Source: Alphaproteobacteria bacterium
GTDB lineage: Bacteria; Pseudomonadota; Alphaproteobacteria; Micavibrionales; Micavibrionaceae
Assembly: GCA_024275825.1 (NCBI GenBank)
Contig: JAJRYK010000029.1
Coordinates: forward strand, 1-64,000
DNA: 64,000 nucleotides
Direction: 5' to 3'
Part shown: piece by piece, positions 9,085-48,110 of the stretch
Layout: every line of letters begins with the position of its first letter
Numbering within the stretch: position 1 is the stretch's first letter
Position numbers and translations under genes: made by a program
The notes under the pieces: generated by a model
Database searches by the model: none
Seen by the model: only the letters and a program-made list of their open reading frames with translations
Told to the model about the DNA's origin: nothing

Positions 9085-9132
9085 AGCCCTATTTGTACGC
9101 GAGGACGCGAAGTTTTTCTAGGTGTAATAATC

Positions 9133-9242
9133 CCCCCTCCCTAAGGGAGGGGGCTAGGGGGCGGGGTTTACGAACAGTGACTTATCAAACATCGTCACCC
9201 CCCACCTTAATCCCCCCCCCTAGGGGGAGGAAAACTGTTCGT
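9133..9242. repeat. C/G-rich compound palindromic repeat
   Basis: Three nested dyads lie here. One is CCCCCTCCCT paired with AGGGAGGGGG (9133-9153). The second is a long-range pair, ACGAACAGT (9170-9178) with ACTGTTCGT (9234-9242). The third is a CCCCCCTAGGGGG core near 9217. The design resembles dispersed REP/MITE-like elements made of CCCTC/GAGGG arms, and a related copy is at about 49.75 kb. It fills the gap between ppsR and the first DUF6782-like gene. Confidence 0.75.
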
Positions 9243-9265: not shown

Positions 9266-10570
9266 TTAATTAATGCTACCTGTGCCTTCAAAAACAAACA
9301 CGTCTGGGAAGATCTTTTCTGCCAGCATTGTATCACGAAATGGAACGCCTTCGACATAGGTCACACACATATCATGCGTAATCTGCATAAAGTGCGCTTG
9401 ATTAATATCATCCTGCAAGCCGCTATAGGCCGGATCGCTCAGGATTTCGTCCCCTAGACCACGCAAATAGGGCGTTTTATCGGGTAAGCATGACAAAATC
9501 TCAACACCAATATGTGTGGGCTTACGCTTACCAAACGGATTACCCACCGGGTATTCCTGCAAAATATCATCCATATAACAGAGCGTTTCATGATCACAAG
9601 AATTCACACGCACAGGATCATTAAACCACTGCTTAAACGCTTCAGCCAGTGCCCTGCCATTAAACTGAGATGCTGGATCACGTTCAAGATAAGCCGAAAA
9701 TGTCATCGCCATATCGCCCTCATCCGAACCAATCAGATGGCGCCAAAAATTGCCTTGCCCCTCACTGCGCAGCTCCCATCCCACCAGAATAGAGAGCACA
9801 TCACAATCAGCAGCGCGCACGCGCTCGAGCAGCAAAATATAATCAGGCGCATAATCTTCATCAAACCCGCCATGGCGAATCTCCTGCCAGATATCACGCA
9901 AGGCACGAATCAAACACACCTTCAGGGCGTTGCGAAAATAATCGGAACGCGCAAAGCCCTCTGGACCCAGGCCTTGATCATGCAGCATGACAATTTTAGC
10001 AGGAACATCCAAATGAAAATCCCGCTCGCCCAAATCTTCAATCCCGATGCGCCAGTCATGATGAGCGACCTCACTTATCATGCGCGCCGCAGACGGGCTG
10101 AATATGAGCGATTGGAGACACTCACGTAAAATATAGTTGAAATCTGTTTCGCATACATCATTGTGCACATGAGCAAGCTCACCAATCAGCCACGTGCCGT
10201 CGTGCTGCGCATCAATCTGTGGTTTTTGGAAGACATCAAAACGATGCGGCAGAAAGTCTCTGGCCCGCAAACCCGACTCTCTCTTCTTCGTATTGCGCTG
10301 CAGTTGAAACGGCTTCACGTCATGATACTCATTTTGATACGCAGTAGTGAACTCAAAATACTCGTCCTGCGCGTGGTTACTCGGATGACCAGCGTCGTAA
10401 GTAGATGATCTCGGCTGATCCCTTATTATTCTTTCGTTTGGATCTGTCTTTTGGCTTGAGCAGTTTTGCGCTTTGCTCAACTTTATCCCCAGCTGAATCA
10501 GGCGCTTCTGAGACTTGCTCTCCATCTGTGAATAGAGAAATGATGTCGGCTGTATGTCCTTTTTGGCCAT
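9266..10570 (-). CDS. DUF6782-like protein A (putative metallopeptidase-fold), origin-proximal
   Basis: An unfamiliar protein of about 434 residues that is a diverged paralogue of the gene just upstream. Matching blocks include RALRDIWQEIRHGG (compare ARELRRHWQHRQGA in the neighbour), then VRAADCDVLSILVGWELRSEG (shortened match to the neighbour), and ALAEAFKQWF (compare AMASLFEAWF). I place both in the DUF6782 group from memory; that family is annotated as putative metallopeptidase, but no intact H-E-x-x-H is present here. The start is uncertain. ATG at 10570 has GGATC upstream but overlaps the neighbour by 194 bases; ATG 10525 or a GTG near 10318 are alternatives. Confidence 0.65.
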   Translation of the reverse strand: MAKKDIQPTSFLYSQMESKSQKRLIQLGIKLSKAQNCSSQKTDPNERIIRDQPRSSTYDAGHPSNHAQDEYFEFTTAYQNEYHDVKPFQLQRNTKKRESGLRARDFLPHRFDVFQKPQIDAQHDGTWLIGELAHVHNDVCETDFNYILRECLQSLIFSPSAARMISEVAHHDWRIGIEDLGERDFHLDVPAKIVMLHDQGLGPEGFARSDYFRNALKVCLIRALRDIWQEIRHGGFDEDYAPDYILLLERVRAADCDVLSILVGWELRSEGQGNFWRHLIGSDEGDMAMTFSAYLERDPASQFNGRALAEAFKQWFNDPVRVNSCDHETLCYMDDILQEYPVGNPFGKRKPTHIGVEILSCLPDKTPYLRGLGDEILSDPAYSGLQDDINQAHFMQITHDMCVTYVEGVPFRDTMLAEKIFPDVFVFEGTGSIN

Positions 10571-11747
10571 GGTTTTGATCCTGTGTATTGTGTTGAGCGC
10601 CAGAAGAGCGAATGTCTCCTGCGGCAGGTTCAAAATCAAATTGCAATTCTTGTTCCGTTTCGCGGAAACTACGCTCAAACTTAATAAACCAAAGGAAATT
10701 AGCGTTTGAGCGATCTCTGACCTCAGTAAAAATTGGGTCGTCCATAATCGTCATGGCATGCTGCGCCAGGTAATTTTTGCCGAAAGGCATCTCGCCCAGG
10801 GCGGCAATTAATGTCGGGGTAATTGATTCTTCGGCAGTCTCTGTGTTAAAGACATAGCCGCCGTAATCCGCAAGCATTCTCTGGATCAACTTCTTATCTT
10901 CCATGCGGCAGCGCTCTGAAAGGAACCAAGCCTCAAACAAAGACGCCATCGCCTCACCGTTATTCAATGTACGGAAATCAAGAAAAGCTTCGCGCGCCAA
11001 GGCATGACCAAGATCGCTGAGCGAAGAATTTTCAATACGCTCCCACGCTTCTTTCGCACCAGAAAGCTGAAGCTCCCATGCAATGCGCACCATTGAAACG
11101 CTCAGATCCGCAACCTGCACGCGATTAATCAAAACCGCATTATCAGGCTGGAACAGCATGGGATTAATCAGTGCACCCTGACGGTGCTGCCAGTGACGAC
11201 GCAACTCACGCGCGCACAATAAAACCTGGTCGGTAAGATCGAGATTTTGATTAATCAAAATTGTACCAACATTGCGGTCATATTCCGCATCCATAATCTC
11301 GGCTGAAAATTTAATCTCAATATTGTGGTCTTTAGCAAACTCTATATAGGCCGCAGCAATACGGCTCTTATTCAGTGTTTCCAGCATAAGATTAATATCC
11401 AGTGATGGCTGAACATCGCGAATGCCCGTGATCAAATCACGATCTTCGGCGAATTCTTCTAAACGTTGATATGGGTCTTCACTAAAGCCTTGTGAAAAGT
11501 GATCAAGCGAATCGATTTCTTTTTTGAGGGTGCACAATTCACGCTCAAGAATCTGCAAATCGGCATCGTCAAACATTGCCATATCTTCATCTTCATAATC
11601 AATATCGTAATCCATATAAAATAACGGCTGATCGCCAATGATTGTACATTGCACAGGCTGCGCATTATTTAGCGTATATGCCACACGACAAATGCGCTGT
11701 GCAGAATTATCTTTACCACCGGTAAACATTGTAAAAATGTTGCTCAT
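10377..11747 (-). CDS. DUF6782-like protein B (putative metallopeptidase-fold), origin-proximal
   Basis: A 456-residue protein with an acidic N-terminal region (about 45-65), a probable coiled stretch (65-85), a central domain (about 130-380) and a basic, low-complexity tail ending in RRWSSE. The central segment LLCARELRRHWQHRQGA resembles a zinc-protease helix H-E-L-R-H in which the first His is replaced, so activity is doubtful. DUF6782 membership is from recall and should be tested. It is upstream of the paralogue on the same strand and the two coding regions overlap, implying a tandem duplication followed by divergence. Confidence 0.7.
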   Translation of the reverse strand: MSNIFTMFTGGKDNSAQRICRVAYTLNNAQPVQCTIIGDQPLFYMDYDIDYEDEDMAMFDDADLQILERELCTLKKEIDSLDHFSQGFSEDPYQRLEEFAEDRDLITGIRDVQPSLDINLMLETLNKSRIAAAYIEFAKDHNIEIKFSAEIMDAEYDRNVGTILINQNLDLTDQVLLCARELRRHWQHRQGALINPMLFQPDNAVLINRVQVADLSVSMVRIAWELQLSGAKEAWERIENSSLSDLGHALAREAFLDFRTLNNGEAMASLFEAWFLSERCRMEDKKLIQRMLADYGGYVFNTETAEESITPTLIAALGEMPFGKNYLAQHAMTIMDDPIFTEVRDRSNANFLWFIKFERSFRETEQELQFDFEPAAGDIRSSGAQHNTQDQNHGQKGHTADIISLFTDGEQVSEAPDSAGDKVEQSAKLLKPKDRSKRKNNKGSAEIIYLRRWSSE

Positions 11748-12034: not shown

Positions 12035-12649
12035 TTACTGCCCCAACGTATCATCCAATACCGGCATATCCTCAATCAACAGCTCTTCATTCAAAACCGT
12101 CACTTCACCGCCCTTACTCACCGTAATATCGCTTTTAAACAGCGAATCCTTAAACATCATGCAGGCGGTGAGTTTGTAAGAGCCATCAGCCTGCGCACCA
12201 TTTAAGGTCAACGGTATAATCATTTTACCAATCGCTTTGCGGGCCGTGGGCGGCGGATCGTCTTTCCACCCAATATCATCGACATTTTCGACAATCAAAA
12301 AACGTCCATGCTTACCGCGCACATACCCGAAGAAAAAGCGGACATAGTCAAAAATACTTTCTTCATCAAGCATAATCGGCAGAGATTTGTTCATCGCATA
12401 TAAAGGGGCATTCGTGAAATCCATCGCGGTCACGCTGCCCAGCTTATAGAGCACATAGCGCTGCAGCGGCGGCATCACAGTGTGGTTCGAAATATCCAAA
12501 AACTGAAATCCCGGATAAAACGAGACATCAATCGCCATCACAGTTGTATCCAGCGGATCAAACACCACGCTATCAAAGGCTACATTGCATTCATCAAGAA
12601 TGCGCGCCGTGCTTTCTACATCTAATTTATCAAACGCTTCTTTAAACAT
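12035..12649 (-). CDS. Conserved-looking protein of unknown function
   Basis: I do not recognise a family. The ATG at 12649 is chosen because CGGAAG lies about six bases upstream; the longer frame (to 12700) adds 17 residues without a ribosome site. About 204 residues, acidic at both ends, with aromatic-rich centre (FDYVRFFFGYVRG) and PPLQRYVLYKLG; no signal or membrane helix. It is the last leftward gene before the candidate origin. Confidence 0.7.
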   Translation of the reverse strand: MFKEAFDKLDVESTARILDECNVAFDSVVFDPLDTTVMAIDVSFYPGFQFLDISNHTVMPPLQRYVLYKLGSVTAMDFTNAPLYAMNKSLPIMLDEESIFDYVRFFFGYVRGKHGRFLIVENVDDIGWKDDPPPTARKAIGKMIIPLTLNGAQADGSYKLTACMMFKDSLFKSDITVSKGGEVTVLNEELLIEDMPVLDDTLGQ

Positions 12650-47367: not shown

Positions 47368-47970
47368 TTAACATGTGGCAGCGTATTGGCCCGGGAAAAC
47401 GATAATATTATCGCCCAAAGCCGCCGATGAAAATGCAGCGGGCGCGAGCTCTAACCCTGCATTTTGCTGTTCAATTACATGTTCTTGCGCGAGGCAAATA
47501 AAAGCTTCGGCGACTAATATCTGAGCCTTGGCCTGCGCATGAAGAATTTTGCACAAAGCTTGTTCGTTTTCATCACACAGGAAGAAACCATAGACCTCAA
47601 GCAGCTCTGCCATATTCTCTAAATCATCGCTTGTATGGATCAAAACGTTGAAAATTTGTTCAGAATTAATGCTCATTCCTTGCGCGTTTTGTGCCCAGAT
47701 TGTCCCATATTCACCAATAATCCGTTCACACTCCATCTCTAGAATGCGCAAATTTGGTGAAACTTTTGTGGAGTGGCCAATTAATGTCTTCGCGCCCAGC
47801 GCAATCGCCAGCAGCGCACTATCCGGCTGCAGCTCGCTAATCACCTCATGCAGGCCATATATAACATCATCGCTCAATGTTTCGCGGCCGTGAAGAATAT
47901 CGCCCATAATTACGGGCACCTGAAGGCGGTTCGCGGTGAACGCTAAATCGTGCTTGCTTAAAATCATCAT
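47368..47970 (-). CDS. Hypothetical protein, 200 residues
   Basis: Unknown family. AGGTAGGGA precedes tandem ATG codons at 47970/47967. Largely helical, acidic, with a block ALLAIALGAKTLIGHSTKVS and LEMECERIIGEYGTIWAQNA. Ends in VFPGQYAATC. No signal peptide. Located upstream of, and on the opposite strand to, comM. Confidence 0.6.
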   Translation of the reverse strand: MMILSKHDLAFTANRLQVPVIMGDILHGRETLSDDVIYGLHEVISELQPDSALLAIALGAKTLIGHSTKVSPNLRILEMECERIIGEYGTIWAQNAQGMSINSEQIFNVLIHTSDDLENMAELLEVYGFFLCDENEQALCKILHAQAKAQILVAEAFICLAQEHVIEQQNAGLELAPAAFSSAALGDNIIVFPGQYAATC

Positions 47971-48087: not shown

Positions 48088-48110
48088 TTATTCACAAATG
48101 CTTATACACA
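48088..48110 (+). promoter_or_regulatory. Pair of DnaA-type boxes upstream of comM
   Basis: TTATTCACA (48088-48096) and TTATACACA (48102-48110), both exact TTATNCACA, in the same direction and five bases apart, 30 bases before the comM start. May allow DnaA control of this gene, or be coincidence. Confidence 0.35.

Follow-up and report, generated by a model that had tools for sequence, protein, structure and literature searches.

Overlapping DUF6782 genes without zinc ligands, and a conserved upstream partner, in the Micavibrio order

Beside the genes hemE and ppsR, in the neighbourhood of a putative replication origin, a genome of the Micavibrio order encodes two related proteins of a putative metallopeptidase family, both of which have lost the first His of the zinc-binding helix. 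The locus raises the question of what such a pair is kept for. The window that we analysed is a stretch of 64,000 nucleotides (GenBank assembly GCA_024275825.1, contig JAJRYK010000029.1, positions 1 to 64,000) from a MAG of 1.92 Mb in 55 contigs. A first-pass annotation, made from the letters alone, had read the two genes, here called A and B, as a divergent tandem duplication with a specialised function in this lineage and as a possibly catalytically dead pair. The accessible text on the obligate bacterial predator of the same order states that about half of its genes had no assigned function (PMC3189940).

Table 1. Features of the A-B locus in the window
Feature	Coordinates	Strand	Description or basis
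Gene A	10377..11747	-	456 aa; open reading frame and DUF6782 match
Parts of gene A		-	N-terminal CRVAYTLNNxQPVxCTIIGDQPLFYMD block; DUF6782 core without zinc ligands; tail of low model confidence
Gene B	9266..10570	-	434 aa from ATG 10570; DUF6782 core without zinc ligands
A, RELRRHWQ in place of HExxHxxQ	11187..11210	-	alignment columns
B, RALRDIWQ in place of HExxHxxQ	9884..9907	-	alignment columns
Same-strand A/B overlap	10377..10570	-	194 bases, B in frame +1 relative to A
AGGA, ribosome-binding-site-like word	10579..10582	-	8 bases before B start, within A
Second conserved in-frame B start, GTG (VKPF...)	10316..10318	-	past A stop; would give 350-aa form, no overlap
A tail motif 1, ADIISL	10533..10550	-	tail motif count
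A tail motif 2, AEIIYL	10398..10415	-	tail motif count
HP221	12035..12649	-	204 aa, unnamed; conserved upstream partner of A

Paralogy, the lost site and the predicted fold

The region 9266-11747 does hold two related open reading frames, both on the minus strand (Table 1), and their assignment to DUF6782 (PF20573) is confirmed by profile search. Against a curated Pfam cut-off of 27 bits, A scores 104.2 bits (E 8.8e-30, profile positions 31-240) and B 53.2 bits (E 3.3e-14, profile positions 92-208), and every B row of our alignment matches the profile at E <=0.1 (64/64); Pfam found no other domain in either protein. Paralogy was established both by pairwise comparison (28% identity over 178 residues, E 4e-12) and by comparison of the A and B profiles (99.4%, E 2e-21). 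The idea of a tandem duplication is less well supported than paralogy. The A members form one clade in the tree and the B members another (100/99), while a quick tree of a reduced set, from which rows that were long or nearly duplicated (11 name prefixes) and half of all A and B rows had been taken out, groups A with B at an SH-aLRT of 85, below the tool's star, and a fuller tree leaves the grouping undecided. In two loci of family f6 genomes (L204 and L205), DUF6782 domains sit within very long open reading frames of >2200 and >1500 aa.

Intact DUF6782 relatives read HELRH...EAD over the active site, and the window's A and B, with RELRR and RALRD, do not have this site of HExxH plus a third ligand in EAD. 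Among 67 A rows, the first His is replaced by R in 54 and present in 2, the Glu is retained in 63, R takes the place of the second His in 58 (H in 1 among the letters listed), and the third-ligand place holds E in 12. Among 64 B rows, R or K stands at the first His in 58 and H in 2, the Glu has become A in 55 and the second His D in 55, with H in none, and E is absent from the third-ligand place among the letters listed. The Arg of HExRH is kept throughout (67/67 in A, 64/64 in B). The loss first noticed at one His is therefore real and reaches the other ligand places, and the ligand columns support the suggestion of a dead pair. It is no novelty of a local lineage: A, B and the site loss occur in families f1, f2, f6 and f7 of the order, where the f2, f6 and f7 members likewise lack HExxH and cluster with the A and B of f1 in the tree. 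Since the lost site has been replaced in a conserved manner, a retained function without catalysis is favoured, and the alignments speak for A and B as catalytically dead zincin-type proteins kept for a non-catalytic role.

AlphaFold2 models have a mean pLDDT of 88.8 for B and of 74.8 for A, the cores being mostly above 90 and the tail of A of low confidence. The two models are alike in topology (strands, then two long helices), so that the structural likeness on which the first-pass reading depended is present in the predicted structures. Structure matches are mostly to zincins, with best Z-scores of 7.8 for A (8s5f) and 5.9 for B, which lie below 8, where the tool cautions that a match may reflect no more than a common arrangement; a zincin relationship of the models is suggestive only. 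With B as query, Foldseek had no hit at E <=0.001; A showed no sequence relation to a solved structure, and profile searches of HP221 against solved structures gave nothing below E 0.1. PADLOC at 0.01 returned no match for A, B or the window's HP221, and PHROGs one weak match for A (metallo-protease) at 0.099. The literature searched held no paper on DUF6782, and a search for inactive zincin pseudoproteases brought up one paper, on plant FtsHi.

A start of B inside A, and the tail of A

The mechanical open reading frame of B spans 9266-10678 (-) and begins at TTG 10678. The likely start is instead ATG 10570, from which the overlap length of 194 bases follows. We compared 77 A-B pairs that are unique by sequence, although they come from related genomes and their counts are not independent events; relative to A, B is in the +1 frame in 69 of these, and the further tests were applied to those 69, which share the common frame relation. 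B-frame stops are absent from the last 100 bases of A (0 in 2277 codons), against 42 per 1000 codons in the same frame of the A body. The signal AGGA-N8-ATG, in the frame of B, is found in 44 of the 69 genomes, between 65 and 206 bases away from the stop of A; no other frame has it at that spacing, and the A body has it in 3/69. The A peptides encoded over this signal vary (QDxxH, EDxxN, KDxxD), and both third bases that the signal requires are present in 44 of 48 such peptides, compared with a background of 38% for G and 67% for T.

These comparisons have to be set against the account that the overlap is merely an artefact of ORF calling and that B begins at GTG 10318. The start site after the A stop is itself conserved, holding ATG, GTG or TTG in 39/50 cases versus 1277/4434 elsewhere in B (p 8e-13); several B genes that are unlinked to A or do not overlap it have open frames of about 350 aa, which suggests that the short form may suffice; and the exact signal is missing in 25/69 genomes. 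We dropped this account after the stop counts and the start-signal test, and with the identical frame relation of most pairs also against it, we rate it quite improbable. By the measure of conserved nucleotides, the A-B overlap is genuine and the start of B inside A is under selection.

The tail of A carries a short recurring motif. Of 64 A tails, 58 have the pattern [A/S/G..][D/E/N..][IV][IV]x[L/F..] one or more times and 35 at least twice, with a mean of 1.45 per tail compared with 0.03 in shuffled tails; the count took 64 of the 67 A rows, the other 3 being without the core word at which tails were cut. The motif is present as well in A proteins without an adjoining B (e.g. L126, L128 and L130) and is thus kept for A itself. 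A general terminal signal was considered and rejected, a closely related pattern being found 7 times in the last 60 residues of 658 other mechanical open reading frames from 40 loci, where shuffling predicts 17. Elsewhere in the window (47368-47970, minus strand), an unrelated protein of 200 aa with no Pfam match has GDNIIVFPG in its C-terminus, which resembles the A tail motif.

Distribution, the HP221 family and the origin

Searches of the order's 142 genomes found A in 134 (E 1e-40), with one match each except in G086, which has two on two contigs; B is found in 121 (E 1e-25) and HP221 in 141 (E 1e-8), mostly in two to three copies. The window's genome is close to Micavibrio, at least 80 named relatives of A being MAGs, many of them named Micavibrio. 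The 21 genomes in which B is missing at E 1e-25 include at least six of genus g51 (family f6) that retain A and HP221, and a fixed A-B partnership is therefore not universal. We collected 119 loci with A, many of which end at contig ends and some of which count a genome twice under different locus ids; B is in the locus in 103 and HP221 in 81, and in 77 of the 81 with HP221 this gene is encoded on the strand of A, no more than 2.5 kb upstream of it. Four of the eight genomes without A (G019, G037, G063 and G106) also lack B and the origin-type HP221. We rejected this co-loss as a sign of a functional link because hemE and ppsR are gone too, which indicates that the assemblies lack the region; the hemE search was positive in 4 control genomes, and the ppsR search had no positive control. 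The same four genomes are rated 97-100% complete, and the origin region seems to drop from bins.

HP221 is an unnamed family, the window's member having no Pfam or NCBIfam match at E 10 and no PHROG at 0.1. Across 286 genomes outside the order, HP221 is found in 18, DUF6782 in 15 and both in 8 (Fisher p 2e-7). In four of them (G191, G242, G330 and G358), HP221 stands just upstream of a DUF6782 gene on the same strand at a total of 7 sites, one of these HP221 matches being weak (28 bits). Five of the partner genes were read, and HExxH is present in 4 and absent in that of G242; the placement of HP221 upstream of intact DUF6782 genes thus recurs in other alphaproteobacterial families. We propose the HP221-type gene upstream of a DUF6782 gene as a candidate module, though HP221 also occurs alone: of the 18 HP221 genomes from outside the order, 10 gave no match to PF20573 at 1e-5, and the 19 HP221 regions retrieved comprise 5 with a clear DUF6782 neighbour, 2 with a degenerate one and 12 in which none was found.

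A fusion joins the two families directly. In the window's own genome (G000), another HP221 copy and a C-terminal domain, the third degenerate DUF6782 domain, form one open reading frame (C24:25112-26170; L184:4110-5171, minus strand). The profile of this C domain matches that of A at 95.4% by hhalign (E 2e-8), with 1% for an HP221 control; one row of the C-domain alignment (L228) is badly cut, and G012 is in it twice. As judged from the places of the open reading frames, with matches from E 6e-124 to 7e-5, HP221 and the C domain are separate neighbours in 10 other genomes and a single frame in 5 more. The fused frame adjoins genes that look suf-like by eye. Another HP221 copy of G000 (C17:10367-10966; L185:5362-5982, plus strand) lies upstream of an outer-membrane beta-barrel gene and near genes that by eye are rnpA- and yidC-like, with similar neighbours in G064 and G012.

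The position beside a putative origin could be taken as a clue to function, whereby the cassette would act in replication initiation or origin segregation and for that reason lie between hemE and ppsR. As far as the available portion of PMC1914354 goes, hemE and COG1806 (ppsR) flank the Caulobacter origin and mark the Caulobacter and Rickettsia origins. The placement of the window's pair beside an origin rests on this gene order. The interval between hemE and HP221 contains one DnaA-type box, and GC skew does not fix an origin point there. Over about 14 to 50 kb of the window the skew stays near zero, turning positive past 50 kb, and two DnaA-type boxes 14 bases apart lie at 48088-48110, a combination that suggests that the origin may not adjoin hemE in this genome. 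Between ppsR and B (9120-9240), palindrome-like G- and C-runs were seen by eye, possibly a REP-type repeat.

Whether A and B always keep to hemE has a mixed answer as well. In family f1, a block of the form rho-hemJ-hemH-hemE / HP221-A-B-ppsR-maf-aroE-coaE-dnaQ recurs with rearrangements, hemE or ppsR is in the same stretch as A in 31/35 loci, and the chromosome of G046, of the same family, starts at hemE within this locus, all of which would suit an origin-linked role. Against it stands genus g29 (G066-G076), where A, B and a high-scoring HP221 are kept in 11/11 genomes but lie apart in 10 (G074 has B beside A), and where the three loci read (L058-L060) have no hemE or ppsR close to A. That g29 keeps the genes mostly apart argues against an origin-bound role, as does the absence by Pfam of a further domain in A or B, and we think such a role improbable. 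The origin-side position is probably inherited gene order, given that hemE and COG1806 mark other origins and that g29 keeps the genes elsewhere.

Proposed role and likeness to known systems

We see about an even chance that A and B are pseudo-enzymes that form a soluble, non-catalytic complex with HP221. The prediction builds on what the sequences show: shared descent of A and B, site loss with conserved replacement, wide presence, the overlap with its start signal, the HP221 linkage and one fusion. That g29 keeps all three genes, mostly apart, also speaks for it. Against it count the 21 genomes in which B is missing, the HP221 copies that stand alone, the zincin matches below Z 8, and the A proteins that have E at the third-ligand place (12/67) or the first His (2/67). 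We hypothesize that the zinc ligands of both proteins were lost before the common ancestor of f1, f2, f6 and f7 and that the proteins were kept for binding; that HP221, encoded upstream on the same strand, would join them by mutual binding; and that the overlap might balance the production of A and B. A partner may dock on the pair of short hydrophobic motifs in the tail of A, and the complex could regulate or scaffold another cytoplasmic process, for which replication control is not favoured. More tentatively, HP221-DUF6782 may be an undescribed two-part alphaproteobacterial module in which a zincin protease has HP221 as its dedicated partner, be it chaperone, inhibitor or adaptor. Three copies of the protease would then have become dead binding proteins in the Micavibrio order, namely A, B and the C domain that in this genome is joined to HP221, and would have been fixed as a housekeeping complex, with B in two forms, one starting inside A and one after it.

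Alternatively, A and B, as dead copies, could be decoys that bind the substrates of active DUF6782 proteases, or draw HP221 away, so as to tune them. Three or more DUF6782 matches are present in 59/142 genomes of the order, the source genome keeps a DUF6782 gene with HELMH (C43:11961), and the intact genes downstream of HP221 elsewhere would suit this reading, but in 78/142 genomes the matches number one or two and are probably just A and B, which would often leave a decoy without an enzyme to act on; we consider this reading unlikely. An enzyme with a non-standard site, in which the conserved RELRR/ALRD helix performs other chemistry, would account for replacement letters that are conserved rather than random, and the best structure match of A is to the HExxH domain of an oxygenase. 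Most members lack a three-residue zincin-type metal site, however, and A and B differ from one another there, which makes this reading very unlikely. The least probable is that the proteins are exported effectors used against prey: the host is related to an obligate predator, and some other DUF6782 proteins have N-termini that by eye are signal-like or lipobox-like, but A and B have no such N-terminus by eye, and A is single-copy per genome and mostly set in a housekeeping gene block.

The proposed complex provides a pair of proteins open to experiment, together with a partner, and nearly every sampled genome of this order, which includes an obligate bacterial predator, carries them. New here is HP221 itself, with its place upstream of A, its recurrence next to intact DUF6782 genes elsewhere and its fusion to a degenerate DUF6782 domain; the first-pass reading had included neither this partner nor the start signal inside A nor the scattering of the three genes in most g29 genomes.

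Compared with DUF6782 (PF20573) in general, A and B share a score over the cut-off and the conserved Arg of HExRH, but differ in the missing zinc ligands, in the extra N-terminal block and motif-bearing tail of A, and in the overlapping N-terminal extension of B. IrrE/PprI, selecase and SprT-like zincins are known as HExxH proteins, whereas A and B are without that site. IrrE and selecase are weak fold matches of A and B, and SprT-like and Peptidase_M78 profiles also match one intact DUF6782 relative adjoining HP221. Domain I of anthrax lethal factor is a zincin-like domain without catalysis that is used for binding, and the structure matches of A and B include some covering that part of its chain. 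The likeness is one of fold only, at Z 5 to 7, and carries no hint of a toxin.

Like translationally coupled same-strand overlaps, A and B are co-directional, with a ribosome-binding-site-like word within the upstream gene; unlike the usual coupled overlaps, theirs is 194 bases long, when more than 80% of gene overlaps are shorter than 30 bp according to the accessible part of PMC12548453. The A-B pair is a case, with good support, of a bacterial same-strand overlap that is both long and conserved, in which the start signal is kept in the nucleotides while the overlapping amino acids vary.
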